Source of the DNA: Methanomicrobiales archaeon
GTDB lineage: Archaea; Halobacteriota; Methanomicrobia; Methanomicrobiales; JACTUA01
DNA: 10,482 nucleotides
Direction: 5' to 3'
NCBI GenBank assembly: GCA_028678715.1
Contig: JAJRCY010000018.1
Span: forward strand, 1 to 10,482
Shown: piece after piece, positions 3,796 to 10,462 of the stretch
Numbering within the stretch: position 1 is the first letter of the stretch
Layout: every line of letters starts with the position of its first letter
The notes under the pieces: model-generated
What the model saw: only the letters and a program-made list of their open reading frames with translations
The model's database searches: none
What the model was told of the DNA's origin: nothing
Made by a program: the position numbers and the translations under genes

Positions 3796-3880
3796 GCGTG
3801 GGTTGCCAAGTCAGGTCAAAGGCGCCGGCTTCAGGGGCCGGTCTCGTAGGAGTTCGGGGGTTCAAATCCCTTCCCACGCA
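3796..3880 (+). tRNA. tRNA-Leu (anticodon CAG)
   Basis: An 85-nt type II tRNA that folds by eye. The acceptor stem is GCGTGGG (3796-3802) with CCCACGC (3873-3879) and discriminator A at 3880. The D-stem is GCC/GGC (3805-3807, 3821-3823) with GG in the loop. The anticodon stem is CCGGC/GCCGG (3825-3829, 3837-3841) around TTCAGGG, giving anticodon CAG at 3832-3834 for the codon CTG. The variable arm is long (3842-3855) with a CTC/GAG stem, as in tRNA-Leu. The T-loop is TTCAAAT. CCA is not encoded and there is no intron. The outer two pairs of the T-stem are G-U (3856-3872, 3857-3871), slightly weak. CTG is frequent in the genes here, so this should be a main leucine tRNA. Confidence 0.97.
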
Positions 3881-4195: not shown

Positions 4196-4825
4196 ATGGC
4201 TGCTGTGGGCTTCCAGGAGGAGGAGAAGGGGAAAGGGAGGGGGGCCTTCAATCCCCTCGCTATCTGCCTGATCTTTCTTGTGTTCGGGATCCTGTGGATT
4301 CTCTTCACGGGAATCCTGCTTCCGATCGTGACCGGAAACCCGGGACTCTCCGGTGAGGTCTCCGCGGTGAGGGAATGGGGCCTTGTGATCGGGGGAACCG
4401 CACTCCTGTACCTCCTTCTCCGACACTACACCGGCACCCTGAAGGAATCCGAGGAACAGTACCGGACCCTTGTCGAGAATGCGGGGAGCATCATCCTCAC
4501 CATGGACCGGGACGGGAAGATCACCTTCTTCAACCGCTATGCCGAGGAGCTCTTCGGGTTCTCCCGCAGGGAGATCATCGGGAGCAATGTGATCGGGACG
4601 ATTGTCCCTGCTACCGAGAGCTCGGGCCGGGACCTGGACCAGCTGATGCAGGACCTCCTGGCATCACCCGGCCGGTTCGTGAAGAACCGGAACGAGAACG
4701 TCACCTCGACCGGAAAACGGGTCTGGGTCCTGTGGACCAACCGGGCCATGTACGACAGGGAGGGGTACATCGCCGGTGTGCTCTCTGTCGGGAACGAGAT
4801 ACCGGAAGAGAAGCCCCGATCCTGA
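4196..4825 (+). CDS. Membrane-anchored PAS-domain protein without output domain
   Basis: A 209-residue protein. A short charged start is followed by two membrane helices (about 20-45 and 60-76) with a small extracytoplasmic loop between them. A linker of the type usual before PAS domains (LKESEEQYRTLVENAG, 82-97) leads to one PAS domain to about residue 203: MDRDGKITFFNRYAEELFGFS at 103-123, then REIIGSN, and the last strands around KRVWVLWTNRAMYDREG. PAS domains bind small ligands or cofactors, or mediate partner contacts. In methanogens this arrangement normally continues into a histidine kinase, but here the frame stops just after the PAS (GNEIPEEKPRS), where family members read GNDITERK. 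No kinase or response regulator is adjacent. It may be a free-standing sensor acting through a partner, or the remnant of a larger kinase. The start at 4196 is the only plausible one and implies a leaderless mRNA. Confidence 0.88.
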   Translation: MAAVGFQEEEKGKGRGAFNPLAICLIFLVFGILWILFTGILLPIVTGNPGLSGEVSAVREWGLVIGGTALLYLLLRHYTGTLKESEEQYRTLVENAGSIILTMDRDGKITFFNRYAEELFGFSRREIIGSNVIGTIVPATESSGRDLDQLMQDLLASPGRFVKNRNENVTSTGKRVWVLWTNRAMYDREGYIAGVLSVGNEIPEEKPRS

Positions 4826-4861: not shown

Positions 4862-5076
4862 TCCTCACCGGTATCGACGATCCCCTTCACCCGCCCCACC
4901 TGGCCATCCGTGAGCCGGACCTTGATCCCGTGGGGGTGATAACCGGTCCCGGTCAGGATCTCCCGCACGGTGCCCCGCACCCTCCGGCCGTTCCGCTGGT
5001 CTCCCTTGGTCACGATATCAACGAGAGCCCCCTTCCGGATGACTGATCGGTTCCGTGGATCCTTTACGGGTTCCAT
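4849..5076 (-). CDS. YwbE family protein (DUF2196)
   Basis: A 75-residue protein that closely matches the small YwbE/DUF2196 family over its whole length. It reads NRSVIRKGALVDIVTKGDQR, then RVRGTVREILT, then the signature HPHGIKVRLTDGQVGRVKGI. These proteins are a single small beta-barrel of KOW/SH3-like appearance, found in bacteria and archaea. Their function is not established; a nucleic-acid or ribosome link is inferred from the fold only. The frame extends 78 codons further upstream to 5310, but that part overlaps the end of the upstream YkgJ gene and has no family resemblance. I therefore start at ATG 5076, with AGG four to seven bases before it. It is 100 bp downstream of the YkgJ-type gene on the same strand. 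No separate promoter is obvious, so the two may be co-transcribed. Confidence 0.9.
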   Translation of the reverse strand: MEPVKDPRNRSVIRKGALVDIVTKGDQRNGRRVRGTVREILTGTGYHPHGIKVRLTDGQVGRVKGIVDTGEEREG

Positions 5077-5176
5077 CTGTCCTGAGTGGTTGGATGGCCA
5101 CCCCCATCTCCCTTTCCCCCGGGATGTGGGATTTCCGGAGTGGCCGTTGGAGCGATTTCCTGCTCCCGCCCGTGAT

Positions 5177-5668
5177 TCAGGAATCTCCCCTGACCACCGT
5201 GTAGCCGGCCTCCAGGAGTACGCGTTCCACCCGAAAGTCCCAGGATGCATCGTCAGGCTCCGAGATCGCACCGACGCGCTGTTCCCATACCCCGCAGAGA
5301 ACCGGATCATCGGAATTGAGGTGCCTCCTTCCCATGACCCGCCCTGCCTGCCTTCCCCGCGAGTCTAGGACCAGGAGCCGCCAGCACTGGAACTCCCTGC
5401 AGATGTCAGGACGTGTGGCATGCACGATGCAGCAGACCCGATGGTTGTCCGGGTCATCCCGCAGGAACGGGCATGCCTCCGGTTCCCTCTGGAAGATGCT
5501 CATGTTGTCCAGAAGGTGGGTCTTGTCGGGGTCCACCGAGACACGGGTCACGTCACCGGTATACCGGTTCAGGAGCGAGTACTCGTGGTTCGCGTACTCC
5601 TCCCGTATGGCATGGACCAGCCCCAGGTGGCTGCAGCACTCCCCGCAGATCCGGCACCGGAATGTCAC
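5177..5668 (-). CDS. YkgJ-type cysteine-cluster protein (putative zinc- or iron-binding)
   Basis: With the GTG start at 5668 the protein has 163 residues. It begins VTFRCRICGECC, the N-terminus typical of the YkgJ/CxxCxxCC family, with Cys at residues 5, 8, 11 and 12. Further cysteines follow in CPFL (66), RVCCIVH (79-80), RPDICREFQC (90, 95), then a late one in VLCGVW. Members bind a metal, reported as zinc or an Fe-S cluster; substrate and reaction are unknown in most cases. The frame is open to an ATG at 5746, but a divergent AT-rich promoter region (5758-5795) predicts a transcript start near 5740, after that ATG. Also, AGGAGGG (5687-5681) lies 12 bases before the GTG. Residues upstream of the GTG show no family features. 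YwbE follows on the same strand. Confidence 0.84.
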   Translation of the reverse strand: MTFRCRICGECCSHLGLVHAIREEYANHEYSLLNRYTGDVTRVSVDPDKTHLLDNMSIFQREPEACPFLRDDPDNHRVCCIVHATRPDICREFQCWRLLVLDSRGRQAGRVMGRRHLNSDDPVLCGVWEQRVGAISEPDDASWDFRVERVLLEAGYTVVRGDS

Positions 5669-5759
5669 CGCCTGGCACCACCCTCCTGCATTCCACCATG
5701 TTCTCTGCCGATCCAGAAAGATAATCCCTCCGCTGCGGGTTCTCATGACGGGCCAGGGT

Positions 5760-5770
5760 GTATATTATAT
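5760..5770. promoter_or_regulatory. TATA region serving the DUF2178-HTH operon and perhaps ykgJ in the other direction
   Basis: GTATATTATAT, in a sharp AT island of about 38 bp, reads as a TATA box on both strands. On the plus strand it predicts a start near 5793 and a 12-nt leader containing GGTGA (5797-5801) before ATG 5805. On the minus strand TATATAAT predicts a start near 5740 for the YkgJ transcript. The overlap means the two divergent promoters may compete for the same factors. Confidence 0.5.
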
Positions 5771-5782
5771 ACAAAATGTATA
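5768..5782. promoter_or_regulatory. Operator-like inverted repeat before the DUF2178-HTH operon
   Basis: TATACAAAATGTATA is a perfect inverted repeat (TATACA, AAA spacer, TGTATA) directly downstream of the TATA box. Its ACAAAATGTATA portion (5771-5782) recurs exactly at 6579-6590 in the promoter of the next operon. Position between TATA box and transcript start suits a repressor. The XRE-type protein encoded at 6252-6461 is the obvious candidate binder (inference). Confidence 0.6.
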
Positions 5783-5804
5783 GTATAGTATACAGCGGTG
5801 AACG

Positions 5805-6068
5805 ATGAGGCGTAACACCTTCTATATCATCCTGGGGCTGGTCATCCTCTTTGAGGTGGGGGTGTTCTGGTGGGCGGTGGAGATACACAACGCACTCCTG
5901 ATGCAGGTGGCATTCATCCTTGGCGTTGTCGTGATCTACCTCTCCCGGCGCAGGGTCGAGGAGGTCATCGAGGATGAACGGACCGTGCTCATCACCCAGA
6001 AGGCAGCCCTGCGCACCCTGGAGATCTTCTGGGTGATCTTCTTTGCCGTGAACCTGGGGTTGCAGTGA
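5805..6068 (+). CDS. DUF2178-type membrane protein, N-terminal part (frameshifted)
   Basis: An 87-residue frame with two membrane helices (about 5-24 and 29-46), a conserved basic-acidic cytoplasmic segment (YLSRRRVEEVIEDERTVLI, 46-64) and the start of a third helix (LEIFWVIFFAVNLG). The E-DER segment after a helix pair is the pattern I associate with DUF2178, predicted membrane proteins of methanogens and haloarchaea often encoded with a small HTH regulator, as here. Family members continue through a fourth helix. That part is present in the -1 frame starting at 6065. Adding one G to the GGGG run at 6056-6059 joins both parts and turns the end of this frame into NLGVAVIGLG, a smoother third helix. 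The break is thus probably a one-base loss, either real or a sequencing error. Family assignment is from memory of the pattern. Confidence 0.75.
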   Translation: MRRNTFYIILGLVILFEVGVFWWAVEIHNALLMQVAFILGVVVIYLSRRRVEEVIEDERTVLITQKAALRTLEIFWVIFFAVNLGLQ

Positions 6069-6268
6069 TTGGCCTGGGACCGCCTGGTTTTCCCCGTCCG
6101 CCGCCGCAGCCTCCGGCAACGGATGGGATACTCCCCTTCCATCTCCTGGGCCGGTTCGCGATCATCCAGATGGCGCTGCTCGGCCTGATGATCCTCCTGT
6201 ACGTCGGGTTCAGGATGTACTATGCACGCAGATACGGGGAATGGGACTCCGATGAAGAACAGGGTTAA
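6065..6268 (+). CDS. DUF2178-type membrane protein, C-terminal part (frameshifted)
   Basis: A 67-codon frame, -1 relative to 5805-6068. A Pro-rich loop (FPRPPPQPPATDG) leads to a fourth helix (FAIIQMALLGLMILLYVGFR, about 32-51) and a conserved-looking cytoplasmic tail MYYARRYGEWDSDEEQ. If translated on its own it would start at GTG 6065, which overlaps the stop codon of the upstream frame (GTGA), allowing re-initiation; no good ribosome site is visible. More likely it is the end of a single protein of about 155 residues whose frame is broken at the G run 6056-6059. Its last 17 bases overlap the start of the HTH gene, so translation of the regulator is probably coupled to this part. Confidence 0.65.
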   Translation: MIGLGPPGFPRPPPQPPATDGILPFHLLGRFAIIQMALLGLMILLYVGFRMYYARRYGEWDSDEEQG

Positions 6269-6461
6269 GGTCTTCCGGGCGGTGCATGATCTCACCCAGG
6301 AGCAGCTGGCGGATGCGCTGGGGGTGACCCGCCAGACTATCCTCGCCATTGAGAAGGGGAAGTACGATCCCTCTCTCGATCTGGCCTTCAGGATCGCCCG
6401 CCACTTCAGGGTCTCCGTGGAGGAGCTGTTCCTGTGGGAGGAGCCGGTAAAAAGTCCATGA
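6252..6461 (+). CDS. Small XRE-type HTH transcriptional regulator
   Basis: A 69-residue protein, essentially one helix-turn-helix domain. LTQEQLADALGVTRQTILAI (14-33) is helices 2-3 with the recognition helix around TRQTILAIEKG, followed by the family-typical KYDPSLDLAFRIARHF and VSVEELFLWEE. Proteins of this short type (YozG-like) are DNA-binding dimers, mostly repressors, often encoded beside a small membrane protein. ATG 6252 is chosen since family members begin MKNR(I/V)K; ATG 6222 would add ten residues lying inside the preceding gene. The start overlaps the end of the DUF2178 C-terminal frame by 17 bp. Probable targets are the shared 12-mers at 5771-5782 (its own promoter) and 6579-6590 (the exporter operon). 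No ligand domain is present, so any signal would have to come from a partner, for example the DUF2178 protein. Confidence 0.92.
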   Translation: MKNRVKVFRAVHDLTQEQLADALGVTRQTILAIEKGKYDPSLDLAFRIARHFRVSVEELFLWEEPVKSP

Positions 6462-6511
6462 CAGTCCGGGGAGGCAGGGCCCTTCACCTCCTCATCTCTT
6501 TCCGGCCGGAG

Positions 6512-6525
6512 GGGGGGTACCCCCC
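6512..6525. repeat. 14-bp G/C palindrome after the HTH gene
   Basis: GGGGGGTACCCCCC is a perfect palindrome 50 bp after the HTH stop codon. In RNA it would pair six G with five or six C once a loop opens, and it may end or protect the DUF2178-HTH transcript. No T run follows. Confidence 0.35.
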
Positions 6526-6553
6526 TGGGGCTGTCCTGGAAATGTCTGGATTA

Positions 6554-6568
6554 GGTAACTATTGGTAA
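6554..6568 (+). promoter_or_regulatory. Two GGTAA repeats one helical turn apart, upstream of the exporter TATA box
   Basis: GGTAA occurs at 6554-6558 and 6564-6568, ten bases apart, ending just before the TATA box at 6570. The position overlaps the BRE region, and the one-turn spacing suits a factor touching one face of the DNA. It could be an activator site or chance. Confidence 0.3.
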
Positions 6569-6569
6569 T

Positions 6570-6578
6570 CTTTATATA
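6570..6578 (+). promoter_or_regulatory. TATA box of the COG1361-ABC exporter operon
   Basis: CTTTATATA, a strong archaeal TATA box, predicts a transcript start near 6602 and a leader of about 68 nt. The 12-mer operator candidate begins one base after it. Confidence 0.7.
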
Positions 6579-6590
6579 ACAAAATGTATA
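6579..6590. promoter_or_regulatory. Second copy of the operator candidate ACAAAATGTATA
   Basis: Identical over 12 bases to 5771-5782 and in the same place relative to the TATA box: TTATATA then CAAAATGTATA there, TTATATAA then CAAAATGTATA here. Here the left half is TATAACA, so the dyad is imperfect; TATAAC also repeats directly at 6575-6580 and 6587-6592. A repressor bound here would block transcription initiation. Confidence 0.6.
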
Positions 6591-6614
6591 ACATGCTTTA
6601 CACAAATCGATACA

Positions 6615-6669: not shown

Positions 6670-7953
6670 ATGAAAGCGAGTCATATGGTACTGGGAATCG
6701 CCATCGTCATCTGGACCCTGGCGGTCATTCTGGTCCCGGCAGCACGCGCTGCAGACACGGGAGCATCAGCAGAAACCCCGGAATCGATGATCGATGTGAC
6801 GGGTATCACCATCAGCCCCGAGGTGTTCATGCGCGGGGATACGGGCACGGTGACCATTGAGATCCAGAATACCGGCGAGTCGGCCGTGACCATCCACCGG
6901 GCCAAACTCATGACCCCCAGCGGCGTCTCCATTGCGAACGACATGGTCTACGATGCAGTCGGTACCATCGGCCCGGGGCATTCCATGTCCTTCACCTACA
7001 CCGTGAAGGCGACCGCATCGGACGGTATCTATTACCCGGAGTTCTACCTGGATTTCCTGACCGGGGGGAGTCTCCGGCAGTACTTCCCGGTGAAGATTGA
7101 CAGTACCGGTATCCAGGTCTCGGTCCTGGACGCCCCGGACACGTATGCTGCGGACAGCAAGGAGACGATCTCCCTCTCCCTGGGCAATCCCCGTGAGACC
7201 AGCGTGAACGGGGTCACGGTCACCCTCCTGGGGGAGCATATCAGGGCCTCCCAGACCGCAGTATTCCTGGGAACGCTCCGGCCGGATGCCGAGAAGAATG
7301 CCACCTTTGAAATCACGCCGTCGGAATCCACCGAACTCACCTTCAATGTTTCCTACCGGAACGGGATGAATGACCACTTCACGACGCTCTCCCTTCCGGT
7401 TACTGTCGGCGGGAGGAGCATGGCCGCGGAACTGGTGGTGAATAACGTCGAGGTGGCGCAGGGCAGCGGCGCGATCACGGTGACCGGCGACGTGACCAAT
7501 GCTGGCCTGGAAGAAGCATATTCGGTCAAGGTCACGGTCGGCACACCGGCAGTACCGGTGGATCCCTATCCTGTCGATGTGATCGGTGCCCTTGAACCCG
7601 ATGATTTTTCCAGCTTCGAGCTGACGTTCCGGGCGCAGGGTGCATCCACGGTCCCGCTCGTCGTGGAGTACCGGGATGGGGAGGGCACGATCCTCCAGGA
7701 GACTGTGACCATCTCCCTCACCGGCGGGACCGGCCAGGCTTCTGCAGCCAGCCCGAGTGTTTCGGGAGGTACGGCCGCCGATGGCCGCACCAACCGGGCG
7801 GGAATGTTCGGCTCCTTCGGGACGGGATTCGGGAGGATCCCGTTCCTGCAGATGGCTCTCGTCCTTGTCGTTGCCGTCGTTGGCGTCGTGGCATGGCGGA
7901 AAGGTTACTTCGGGAAGATCCGTGACCGGTTCCGTGGCCGATCCCGGAAGTGA
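6670..7953 (+). CDS. Secreted, membrane-anchored Ig-like domain protein (COG1361 / CARDB-NEW3 type)
   Basis: A 427-residue protein. Residues 1-27 are a Sec signal peptide (a long hydrophobic run ending in ARA, with cleavage near 27-28). Then come about three beta-sandwich domains: 43-125 with SPEVFMRGDTGTVTIEIQNT, 130-220 with DSKETISLSLGNPRETS, and 250-350 with VEVAQGSGAITVTGDVTNAG. The turn phrases NTGES and NAGLEE are typical of CARDB/NEW3 domains. A Gly/Ser/Ala-rich linker (about 350-390) leads to one C-terminal membrane helix (about 393-411) and a basic tail. It should therefore sit outside the cell, anchored at its C-terminus. The gene is first in an operon with an ABC ATPase (10 bp downstream) and a MacB/FtsX-type permease. 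By position it may be the extracytoplasmic partner of the exporter, in the place MacA-like adaptors take in bacteria, though it is not homologous to MacA. The ribosome site GGGAG fits the ATG at 6670. Confidence 0.85.
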   Translation: MKASHMVLGIAIVIWTLAVILVPAARAADTGASAETPESMIDVTGITISPEVFMRGDTGTVTIEIQNTGESAVTIHRAKLMTPSGVSIANDMVYDAVGTIGPGHSMSFTYTVKATASDGIYYPEFYLDFLTGGSLRQYFPVKIDSTGIQVSVLDAPDTYAADSKETISLSLGNPRETSVNGVTVTLLGEHIRASQTAVFLGTLRPDAEKNATFEITPSESTELTFNVSYRNGMNDHFTTLSLPVTVGGRSMAAELVVNNVEVAQGSGAITVTGDVTNAGLEEAYSVKVTVGTPAVPVDPYPVDVIGALEPDDFSSFELTFRAQGASTVPLVVEYRDGEGTILQETVTISLTGGTGQASAASPSVSGGTAADGRTNRAGMFGSFGTGFGRIPFLQMALVLVVAVVGVVAWRKGYFGKIRDRFRGRSRK

Positions 7954-7963
7954 GGGCAGGGGG

Positions 7964-8644
7964 ATGCAGGTGAGCCAGCGGCCGGTGATCGTACTGGACC
8001 GGGTGACCAAGGTGTACCCCCTGCCTGCGGGCGATGTCGTGGCCCTCAACAATATCTCTCTCACCATCAACGAGGGGGAGTTCGTCACCATCATGGGCCC
8101 CTCGGGGTCGGGAAAGTCCACGCTCCTCAACCAGATCGGGTGCCTGGATGTCCCGACTTCGGGAGACCTCTCCCTCAACGGGAGGGACGTCAGGGCAATG
8201 AATGACCGGGAGCTGACCGATCTCCGCCTCACCACCATCGGTTACATCTTCCAGAAATTCAACCTGATTCCCCTTCTCACGGCTTACGAGAACGTGGAGT
8301 ACCCGTACCTCATGAAGCACCGGAAGAACGATGACACCGGGCACGTGCGGCGTCTCCTGTCCCAGGTGGGGATCGATGAGGCCCTGGCCACCCATAAACC
8401 CCCGGAACTCTCCGGCGGGCAGCAGCAGCGGGTGGCCATCGCCCGGGCTCTCGTGAACGACCCGGCGATCCTCCTCTGCGACGAGCCGACAGGAAACCTG
8501 GACTCCCAGACAGGGATACAGATCATGGAGGTGCTCGCGGGACTCCACCGGAGGGGTCGCACGATCATCATGGTGACGCATGAACGGGATATCGCAGCGT
8601 ATGCGGAGCGGACCATCACCATCCGGGATGGGAGGGTGGCATGA
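7964..8644 (+). CDS. ABC transporter ATP-binding protein, MacB/LolD type
   Basis: A 226-residue, complete ABC ATPase. It has Walker A GPSGSGKST (45-53), Q-loop Gln97, signature LSGGQQ (149-154), Walker B ILLCDEP with catalytic Glu174, D-loop GNLDSQ (177-182) and H-loop His206. The stretch TIGYIFQKFNLIPLLTAYENVEYP is typical of the MacB/LolD/FtsE group (COG1136), which drives conformational work in FtsX-type permeases rather than channel-type transport. ATG 7964 is preceded by AGGGGG; the frame is open further upstream, but that part overlaps the preceding gene. The stop codon overlaps the permease start (ATGA), so the two are translationally coupled and certainly partners. All nucleotide-handling residues are present, so the protein should be active. 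Confidence 0.97.
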   Translation: MQVSQRPVIVLDRVTKVYPLPAGDVVALNNISLTINEGEFVTIMGPSGSGKSTLLNQIGCLDVPTSGDLSLNGRDVRAMNDRELTDLRLTTIGYIFQKFNLIPLLTAYENVEYPYLMKHRKNDDTGHVRRLLSQVGIDEALATHKPPELSGGQQQRVAIARALVNDPAILLCDEPTGNLDSQTGIQIMEVLAGLHRRGRTIIMVTHERDIAAYAERTITIRDGRVA

Positions 8645-9873
8645 TCGGGAAGGACATCCTCTTCCGGCTCTCGGTCCGGAGCGTCCGGCTGCACCTCCTC
8701 CGGTCAATCCTGGCCGCGCTCGGCATCGTCATCGGTGTGGTTGCCATCGCAGCCATGGGCATGATGGGCGCCAACATGACCCTCTCCGTGACTGAGGACC
8801 TCTCCAAGATGGCCAATATTCTGGTGGTGAGGGCGTACACCGGGGGCGGAGGCGGATTCATAGGACCCGGAGGGGGAGGTTCCCGGGTCGTAGGGAGTTC
8901 CCAGGCGAGCGATGAGGAGATGATCACCGAGGACCAGTTCCGGGATATCGACCGCATCGCCGGGTCATACGGTACCGTATACTATGTCTACACGCAATCG
9001 GACACCATCGAGATAGGAGATCGCAGAGGGAGGGCCACGATCATCGGTCTTGATCCCGACGTGGTCCCGGAGATCCTGGAACTCGCGGACGGAGAGTATC
9101 CGAAGAGCACCACGTCTGTCGTGATCGGTCCCCGGCTCGTGGACCGTTTCGCCCTCAAACTCGGTTCCAAGCTGGACATCGGGGATCCGGACGAGGGGAC
9201 GACCACGACAGTGCGGGTCGTCGGCATCCTCCCGGAACGGGGGATGACCCTGGACCTGAACACTGATTCGGCCATCATAGGCAGCGACAAGCTCTACACC
9301 GGTATCTACGGCGGGGAGGGGGAGTACGACCAGGTCACCATCGCCGTGGACAACCTGGACGAGGTTGCGACCGTCAAAGAGGAGATCCTCGCGCAGCTGA
9401 ACAGGAAGGAGGAGGAGGTGACCGTCCAGGACAGCAGCAGGATACTGGAGAGCATCACCTCAACGCTCTCCACCATGACCTCGTTTGTCATGGCCATCGC
9501 CGGCATCTCCCTGATGGTCGCCGCCGTATCGATCTTCAATGTGATGATGATGTCGGTCACCGAAAGGGTCCGGGAGATTGGCATCCTCCGGAGCATCGGT
9601 ACCCAGAAGAGCGATGTGCGGCGGATGTTCCTCTATGAGGCAAGCATCCTGGGGCTTGTCGGAGGGGGGATCGGTGCAGTGATGAGCCTTGTTATCGGGT
9701 ACATGGTGGTCCTGGGGATGGTCGGGACCACGGAGTTCTTCTTTGCAGGGGAGAGCCTGTGGTATATCCCCTTTGCAATGGCCGTTGGCATCACCATCTG
9801 CATCATCTCCGGGGTCTACCCTGCCTGGCAGGCCTCAAACCTGGACCCCATCGAGGCACTACGTGCGGAATGA
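8641..9873 (+). CDS. ABC transporter permease, MacB/FtsX type
   Basis: A 410-residue protein with the four-helix MacB/FtsX layout. Helix 1 (about 20-43) is followed by a large extracytoplasmic MacB_PCD domain (about 44-260), then helices at about 281-304, 333-360 and 374-394. The coupling segment SVTERVREIGILRSIGTQKSDV (305-326) contacts the ATPase, and the C-terminus has the family ending YPAWQASNLDPIEALR. Residues 68-80 are a glycine-rich loop (TGGGGGFIGPGGGG) inserted early in the external domain; many relatives have short Gly-rich stretches near here, but this one is pronounced. MacB-type permeases export peptides, antibiotics or lipoproteins, or transmit force without transport. The substrate here is unknown. 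In the same operon, the secreted Ig-like protein could extend or gate the external domain. Confidence 0.95.
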   Translation: MIGKDILFRLSVRSVRLHLLRSILAALGIVIGVVAIAAMGMMGANMTLSVTEDLSKMANILVVRAYTGGGGGFIGPGGGGSRVVGSSQASDEEMITEDQFRDIDRIAGSYGTVYYVYTQSDTIEIGDRRGRATIIGLDPDVVPEILELADGEYPKSTTSVVIGPRLVDRFALKLGSKLDIGDPDEGTTTTVRVVGILPERGMTLDLNTDSAIIGSDKLYTGIYGGEGEYDQVTIAVDNLDEVATVKEEILAQLNRKEEEVTVQDSSRILESITSTLSTMTSFVMAIAGISLMVAAVSIFNVMMMSVTERVREIGILRSIGTQKSDVRRMFLYEASILGLVGGGIGAVMSLVIGYMVVLGMVGTTEFFFAGESLWYIPFAMAVGITICIISGVYPAWQASNLDPIEALRAE

Positions 9874-9925: not shown

Positions 9926-10462
9926 TCAGCGTTTCACCCGGTATCCCGCCTGCAGCACCTCCCAAGGAACCACCATCCCCGGGGATTCTGCCCGGTCCAG
10001 GGTCAGGATCCCGTCCAGGTGGTCCACCTCGTGCCGGACCAGGGATGCCAGATCCGGATCCACGGCCTCCCAGATATCCGGGGTGCCATCCCGGGTCACG
10101 AACCGGACGGACAGGCTCACCGGCCGCATGACACGGACGGCGAGGTGGGGGAAGGACATGCACCGTTCCCAGACGGGGCTGGATTCCGGGCTTTCCCGGA
10201 TGATAACCGGGTTGATCAGGGATATCTCCCTCCCTTCCCTTTCGACGATGAGGATGCGCAGGGGAATCCCTATCTGCGGCGCGGCAATGCCGTGGGCGGC
10301 ACCGTGGCGAGCCTGGAACCAGTGGAGGGCATCTTCCAGGAACCGGATCGTCGGGCCTGCCGGGGCGAGGGCGTCAGCGGGGAGGGGTGCTGCGGCCTCC
10401 CTGAGCCGGGGATCGTCGAGGGAGAGAAGCGGGTGCGGGGGAGGGCGGAACCGCCATTTCAC
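9926..10462 (-). CDS. def: Peptide deformylase
   Basis: At least 178 residues. Peptide deformylase removes the N-formyl group from nascent proteins using a metal (usually iron) held by one Cys and two His. The three motifs are visible: HGIAAPQIG (57-65; consensus GxGLAAPQ, with Gln63), ERCMS (99-103; consensus EGCLS, with ligand Cys101), and HEVDHLDG (144-151; consensus HExxH, with ligands His144 and His148 and catalytic Glu145). The start LSLDDPRLREAA (14-25) and the insert RDGTP also fit. The second residue of motif 2 is Arg instead of Gly. Archaea normally start translation with unformylated Met, so the enzyme is unexpected and suggests transfer from bacteria or another substrate. The GTG at 10462 has no ribosome site, and the frame stays open to the window edge (reading SRWLSR before it), so the true start may lie outside. 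Confidence 0.9.
   Translation of the reverse strand: MKWRFRPPPHPLLSLDDPRLREAAAPLPADALAPAGPTIRFLEDALHWFQARHGAAHGIAAPQIGIPLRILIVEREGREISLINPVIIRESPESSPVWERCMSFPHLAVRVMRPVSLSVRFVTRDGTPDIWEAVDPDLASLVRHEVDHLDGILTLDRAESPGMVVPWEVLQAGYRVKR

Follow-up and report, generated by a model that had tools for sequence, protein, structure and literature searches.

A paired-dyad promoter element as the candidate operator of a CylR2-like regulator at archaeal exporter genes

As described in one publication (PMC3709268), CylR2 of the Enterococcus faecalis cytolysin operon adjoins export genes, is partnered by the membrane protein CylR1, for which three spans are predicted, and sits on the promoter in the inactive state; the mechanism of CylR1 itself is left unresolved there. 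The window analyzed here, a 10,482-nucleotide stretch of DNA from a Methanomicrobiales archaeon, encodes a regulator that is, like CylR2, a small XRE protein and has the same fold over nearly its full length (44% identity with an E-value of 4.9e-06 for the structure match, and 48.7 bits for the sequence match). The regulator gene is also encoded with a small multi-span membrane protein, a DUF2178 protein with three spans that we liken to CylR1 by span number and gene context, not by homology. The two regulators are compared here by protein and gene context. However, the window differs from the CylR1/CylR2 system in having an archaeal promoter and an extra one-span protein. Moreover, its exporter is of a COG1361-ABC-FtsX composition with no toxin genes recognized beside it, and the archaeal regulator genes are often tandem or convergent with the exporter and divergent in only a few cases. 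The closest solved structure is that of DR_2454 from Deinococcus radiodurans (PDB 9k3w), with 59-61% identity in the aligned part and an rmsd of 0.6-0.7, although this protein is bacterial. Among the literature matches listed (titles and abstract openings), none dealt with an archaeal CylR2-like or DUF2178 regulator, and the name DUF2178 was absent from papers in the literature searched.

HTH_3 dimers of lambda, 434 and P22 bind adjacent dyads of about 14-18 bp over a promoter. Neighboring dyads over a promoter are present in the window too, but with a 21-bp pitch and a 3-bp junction, and within the BRE/TATA promoter of a chromosomal exporter. In archaea, the repressors MDR1, Phr and LrpA block TBP/TFB or polymerase. 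These systems resemble the present locus in having a site over the core promoter, autoregulation and, in one case, an ABC transporter, although they belong to other protein families than the window regulator. To our knowledge, transcriptional control in Methanomicrobiales has been little studied. Based upon comparative sequence analysis, we consider it likely that a word shared by two promoters of the window is the center of an operator for the adjacent CylR2-like XRE protein, which would act as an autoregulated repressor of the exporter.

The two operons and their products

Two consecutive operons on the plus strand carry the following genes.

5805-6068, plus strand: DUF2178 membrane protein, 87 aa (Pfam PF09946, E 2.4e-18)
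6065-6268, plus strand: small protein, 67 aa, with one hydrophobic region (tblastn, hydropathy)
6252-6461, plus strand: 69-aa XRE/HTH_3 regulator of the CylR2 type (PF01381)
6670-7953, plus strand: COG1361-like exported protein, first exporter gene (CARDB and NPCBM_assoc Pfam matches)
7964-8644, plus strand: ABC ATPase of the MacB/LolD type (PF00005)
8641-9873, plus strand: MacB/FtsX-type permease (PF12704, PF02687)

The first gene of the regulator operon encodes the DUF2178 protein, whose three hydrophobic spans, the third of them weak, are seen by hydropathy. Its stop codon is overlapped by the start of the 67-aa protein gene, whose product has no Pfam match; tblastn matches to it lie between DUF2178 and the HTH gene in many relatives. 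The COG1361 label of the first exporter gene comes from the initial annotation, and hydropathy gives its product one N-terminal and one C-terminal span. The start codon of the ABC ATPase at 7964 is our choice, and its best NCBIfam matches fall under their cut-offs.

The regulator has sequence matches in the PDB to 9k3w and 1utx, and the top folds for its structure model (pLDDT 92) are 9k3w and CylR2. In its length of 69 aa (about 65-70 aa being expected), its stand-alone HTH_3 make-up and its CylR2 fold it agrees with CylR2-like XRE regulators, and inverted repeats, as expected for the site of a homodimer, are found in the target promoter (putative operator). Judging from the modeled fold, the regulator probably works like the CylR2 type. 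Nevertheless, we do not class the window system as a CylR1/CylR2 cytolysin switch, since its neighboring operon encodes an exporter and the likeness of DUF2178 to CylR1 is one of span number and gene context. A Pfam scan of seven of the window's proteins found an exported protein and an ABC exporter beside the regulator and no lantibiotic toxin operon.

Three other features of the window were recorded. A tRNA-Leu (CAG) lies at 3796-3880 on the plus strand, and a CxxCxxCC metal-chelating domain protein (PF03692) is encoded on the minus strand at 5177-5746, divergent from the regulator operon, with which it could have a common promoter region. An ORF at 9926-10462 on the minus strand is, judging by its motif, a candidate peptide deformylase.

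Paired dyads at the two promoters

The promoter features are as follows.

5756-5773, plus strand: position of the left dyad in the regulator operon, with no GT in register and GGG at 5756-5758
5768-5794, plus strand: putative regulator-operon operator, TATACA-AAA-TGTATA (5768-5782) plus the right dyad (from sequence; similar sites in part of the relatives)
6564-6602, plus strand: putative exporter operator, two 18-bp dyads with a 21-bp pitch (profile conserved in relatives' exporter promoters)
6564-6581, plus strand: left exporter dyad, GGTAATCTTTATATAACA
6571-6578, plus strand: TATA box of the exporter operon, TTTATATA, within the left dyad (from sequence)
6579-6590, plus strand: second copy of ACAAAATGTATA, comprising the inner half-sites of both dyads and the junction
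6585-6602, plus strand: right exporter dyad, TGTATAACATGCTTTACA

The initial annotation had proposed ACAAAATGTATA as an operator common to both promoters, with its first copy inside a perfect dyad. The word is indeed present exactly at 5771-5782 and 6579-6590 on the plus strand, and the first copy does lie in a perfect 15-nt dyad, TATACA-AAA-TGTATA, at 5768-5782. The likeness is not limited to 12 nt, however, since the repeat runs over 24 nt (5771-5794 versus 6579-6602, 79% identity) and closes with a third common triplet, ACA. The window holds no third copy at up to two mismatches (0.07 expected), and two such copies were reached in none of 200 window shuffles. Nor is the word common among promoters of the same genome (1.15 Mb), where a search at up to one mismatch returned these two sites only and the reversed control gave no matches, with the proviso that the assembly is 57% complete and further copies are thus possible in the missing part.

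Neither the 12-mer nor ACA-N3-TGT is the binding unit, by our reasoning, because the triplets are only 6 bp apart center to center and the other symmetry centers mark 18-bp dyads. One dimer needs more than a 9-bp dyad, and 18 bp is a usual dyad length for HTH_3 dimers. What the annotation had taken as an operator unit is instead the junction of two 18-bp dyads, which at the exporter promoter have the consensus TGTAAA-N6-TTTACA. Here AAA joins GGTAATCTTTATATAACA and TGTATAACATGCTTTACA, and the junction reads ACA-AAA-TGT. GTAA at 6565-6568 occupies the position that we take to be the BRE, and 6571-6578 the one that we take to be the TATA box, both assigned from general knowledge of archaeal promoters. 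The left dyad is thereby predicted to cover BRE and TATA, and the right dyad the predicted start site. In the regulator operon the right dyad is perfect (TGTATA-GTATAG-TATACA, 5777-5794) and the left is out of register, its place being taken by a near-perfect 15-bp dyad, TGTATATTATATACA, at 5759-5773. A strict 38-mer pattern matches the genome once, at the exporter site. No RNA element was matched in Rfam at the gathering threshold between 5650 and 6750.

Motif discovery by EM, run separately on 39 DUF2178-HTH promoters and 26 exporter promoters, returned two related motifs, tnwatnaCaaAATGtnaAAtattnnatACA for the former and TaaAtaACAaaATGTAAAAtaTatTTTACA for the latter. The conserved triplets are ACA at 0, TGT at +6 and ACA at +21. 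Among 31 sites of the exporter profile, one of which (L204) proved spurious and was dropped afterwards to leave 30, the best symmetry center lies at +4.0 relative to ACA, followed by +14.5 and -6.5; in the operon profile these centers rank first, fourth and fifth. Centers at these three positions are expected of two 18-bp dyads 21 bp apart. The outer half-site (-15 to -13) was examined on bases unused in site selection. There, GT at -14/-13 is present in 26 of 30 exporter sites and 12 of 15 operon sites, whereas only 3 of the 73 generic TATA sites have it; among sites seen for the first time, 24 of 30 carry it. The 15 operon sites in the symmetry and TATA comparisons were chosen from the 39 by 7 of 9 matches to ACAAAATGT plus ACA at +21, which fixes their ACA count in advance; exporter sites were chosen by consensus similarity, which leaves the outer GT as the sole unselected column.

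Conservation and association with the regulator

Sixty regulator loci, the best HTH matches after the window's own, with a single match skipped because it was the second on a contig already included, were taken from 50 genomes (49 relatives and the window's own). The HTH protein is at least 65% identical in 44 of these loci, and in 22 of the 44 a full exporter trio lies within 6 kb, either downstream of it on the same strand, convergent with it, or upstream and divergent. When exporter upstream regions were scored with leave-one-family-out training, 31 of 45 reached at least 17.7 and the remaining 14 scored -1.0 or less. Seven of the 45, including six of the high scorers, come from loci fetched by pattern match, and without them the count is 25 of 38. 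Eight of the low scorers are from genomes without an HTH orthologue, so a score of 17.7 was reached by none of the eight upstreams from such genomes. One of these eight, L179, comes from G002, which also lacks the motif, and is uninformative because its exporter contig is truncated. The six low scorers from genomes with an orthologue are the second exporters of G037 and G047, one exporter of G031, L151 (pattern match about 0.9 kb upstream), L042 of G006 (exact pattern match about 1 kb upstream) and L039, an exporter fragment. Among 40 further exporter upstreams (L207-L246, with L209 repeating the exporter of L086), a right dyad and scores of 9.0-14.8 are seen in four, all of genus g11, and the other 36 score 6.6 or less.

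An independent set of 80 loci was found by permease and not by motif. Twelve had no usable upstream (seven with no gene start, five at a contig edge) and 17 had already been seen, leaving 51 newly seen upstreams. The element is present in 22 of the 26 with HTH in the locus versus 8 of the 25 without (Fisher 2e-4), where "without" means none in the stretch covered, at most 6 kb on either side; the reversed control gave 2 of 68. The element is also carried by the loci L319 and L314 of the cultivated relatives Methanoculleus sediminis and M. chikugoensis. It precedes exporters in all six sampled families, with support in f6 coming only from pattern-fetched loci and the weaker g11 sites. Hence, the annotation's expectation that the element be kept upstream of orthologous exporters was borne out.

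Its companion suggestion, autoregulation, fared less uniformly. When operon promoters were scored with the matrix trained on exporter sites, 16 of 39 reached at least 8 versus 3 of 39 when reversed, so the element is kept before part of the orthologous HTH operons. By family the counts are 6 of 7 in f1, 4 of 11 in f4, 5 of 10 in f5, 1 of 6 in f2 and 0 of 5 in f6, so the support for autoregulation is good in the window's family and weaker in the others. Within the window, regulator and target are both preceded by a site of this type; in relatives it is found strongly at the exporter and partly at the operon. Of the two modes of regulation that had been proposed, predicted exporter control, with the better conserved site, is therefore more widely conserved than predicted autoregulation.

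Across 61 genomes, ACWWWATGT-N10-WWACA is matched 94 times, compared with 32 times for the reversed control. In the window's own genome this pattern finds exactly the two expected sites and the control none; with two mismatches the counts are 15 versus 26 in the control, and the loosened pattern is therefore uninformative. By genome, the pattern is present in 40 of 45 with the HTH (E 1e-20 or better) versus 1 of 16 without (Fisher 3e-9), counting among the 45 two genomes, G043 and G053, that reach this value only through a diverged HTH subgroup; the single pattern match of G043 adjoins a paralogous regulator. The strict 38-mer is present in 107 of 199 genomes, all of this order, with 99 of 152 that carry the regulator (E 1e-18) versus 8 of 47 that do not (Fisher 5e-9), and is absent from 53 of the 152; its reversal gives 19 matches in 17 of the genomes scanned. 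Because the genomes are related, there are fewer independent events than these Fisher values imply, but in the scan of 61 genomes contrasts within genera g8, g9 and g11 also show the association, which is thus not one of family-level kinship alone.

The eight genomes that keep the 38-mer with no HTH orthologue in view raise the question of whether the element is a true operator that is read by some regulator other than the adjacent HTH. In four of them (G032, G147, G167 and G168), a paralogous CylR2-like HTH lies no more than about 3 kb from the site. In G013 (L284, 2477-2738) the operator precedes a DUF2178 fragment with no HTH in the 6 kb examined, which is possibly a decaying operon copy, and in G196 the 38-mer precedes an exporter on a 3.8-kb contig. 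Inspection of the G025 and G081 loci gave no explanation. This alternative is unlikely given the co-occurrence of element and HTH orthologue, the proximity of paralogues in half of the exceptions, and the finding that subgroups with another recognition helix also have other operator letters.

The last point comes from 14 loci with diverged regulators, in which the helix reads VRRETI in 13 and VRRQTI in one, whereas orthologues have VTRQTI or similar. Upstream of these paralogues are TGTTA-type dyads with the same 21-bp pitch, three of them consecutive in some loci. A match at all 12 edge bases is found in 5 of 14 paralogue loci, but in none of 390 random stretches and none of 560 shuffles keeping local composition. 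Five of the 14 loci (L150, L159, L287, L288 and L289) were pattern-fetched, and the full match is found in three of these versus two of the nine others. Paralogues thus appear to keep the architecture while operator letters vary with the protein, and this co-variation is suggestive of a CylR2-like family reading these sites. A separate subgroup (L075, L077, L079, L080, L081 and L082), five of whose six members belong to one genus, has the helix TRRTINSIERG or TRKTINSIERG and a different common promoter word, AAGAGAA...GTTAC, at the same position.

Proposed mechanism and alternative readings

Taking the computed element, its architecture and conservation, its co-occurrence with the regulator and the regulator fold as a starting point, we infer binding, repression and co-operativity, as well as start sites, a signal and a role for the membrane proteins. 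One dimer would bind each 18-bp dyad, and the 21-bp spacing of the dyads, equal to two helical turns, would let two dimers lie next to each other along the same face of the DNA. At the exporter, the BRE and TATA box would be covered by the left dimer and the expected start site by the right one, which would exclude TBP/TFB and RNA polymerase and so repress the COG1361-ABC-FtsX exporter. A site of this kind in front of the DUF2178, 67-aa protein and HTH genes would provide autoregulation. By analogy with what has been proposed for CylR1/CylR2, the signal is likely to enter through the membrane proteins, DUF2178 and the 67-aa protein, which would probably sense an envelope signal and release or inactivate the repressor. 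Regulator, likely operator and target form a defined, testable set that is conserved across much of Methanomicrobiales. The nested dyads suggest how a bacterial-type XRE protein could fit an archaeal core promoter, and DUF2178 gains a testable role.

It is also possible, though we advance this only tentatively, that the locus represents archaeal transmembrane signaling free of a phosphorelay, with a regulon that includes further exporters and secreted-protein genes in several Methanomicrobiales families and with a readable protein-site code. DUF2178 and the one-span protein might then sense an envelope or efflux signal, upon which the CylR2-like repressor would be pulled off paired 18-bp dyads that enclose the whole core promoter. 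Paralogues could use the 21-bp architecture with other recognition helices and operator letters, which would constitute the code.

Even if the adjacent HTH reads the element, it might activate or act in both directions instead of repressing, and XRE proteins are capable of either. We regard this as improbable because the site overlaps the TATA box and the expected start site. An archaeal site in such a position usually means exclusion of TBP/TFB or polymerase.

A still less probable reading, and one that our data largely refute, is that the element is a core-promoter feature of the lineage (BRE, TATA, initiator) read by the general machinery and not by the regulator. In its favor, the element keeps a constant position with respect to the TATA box, with TTTACA where transcription is expected to start. 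However, a control of 73 generic TATA sites from the same loci led us to reject a generic promoter element: each triplet occurs in 1-3 of the 73, and all four occur in none, whereas 18 of the 30 exporter sites and 6 of the 15 operon sites have all four. The sole control site with both ACA and TGT (L137) is in a pattern-fetched locus. The restriction of the exact pattern to two sites in the genome, the second exporters of G037 and G047 that lack the element and the 36 low-scoring further upstreams also argue against this reading. Finally, AT-rich promoters do have short words in common, but a 12-nt word shared by both 65-nt promoter stretches arose in only 21 of 20,000 first-order shuffles, so composition alone is an unlikely explanation, and the presence of the element before exporters in all six families and in the independent set refutes chance likeness, to which we give practically no credence.

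The CylR2-like repressor that we favor may have targets beyond these two promoters. In four places (L137 at 5131-5160, L168 at about 4951-4989, L169 at about 7893-7931 and L170 at about 5036-5074) the element is readable on both strands or lies between divergent genes; these promoters are candidate further members of the regulon, with secreted or lipoprotein-like, ABC or other products. In three genomes of genus g18 in f6 (L142, L148 and L149), the element precedes a related small protein with a signal-peptide-like start. In G064 (L292), three promoters on the minus strand within 4.2 kb, at 4227, 7355 and 8362, each carry the full 38-mer in the same TATA context.
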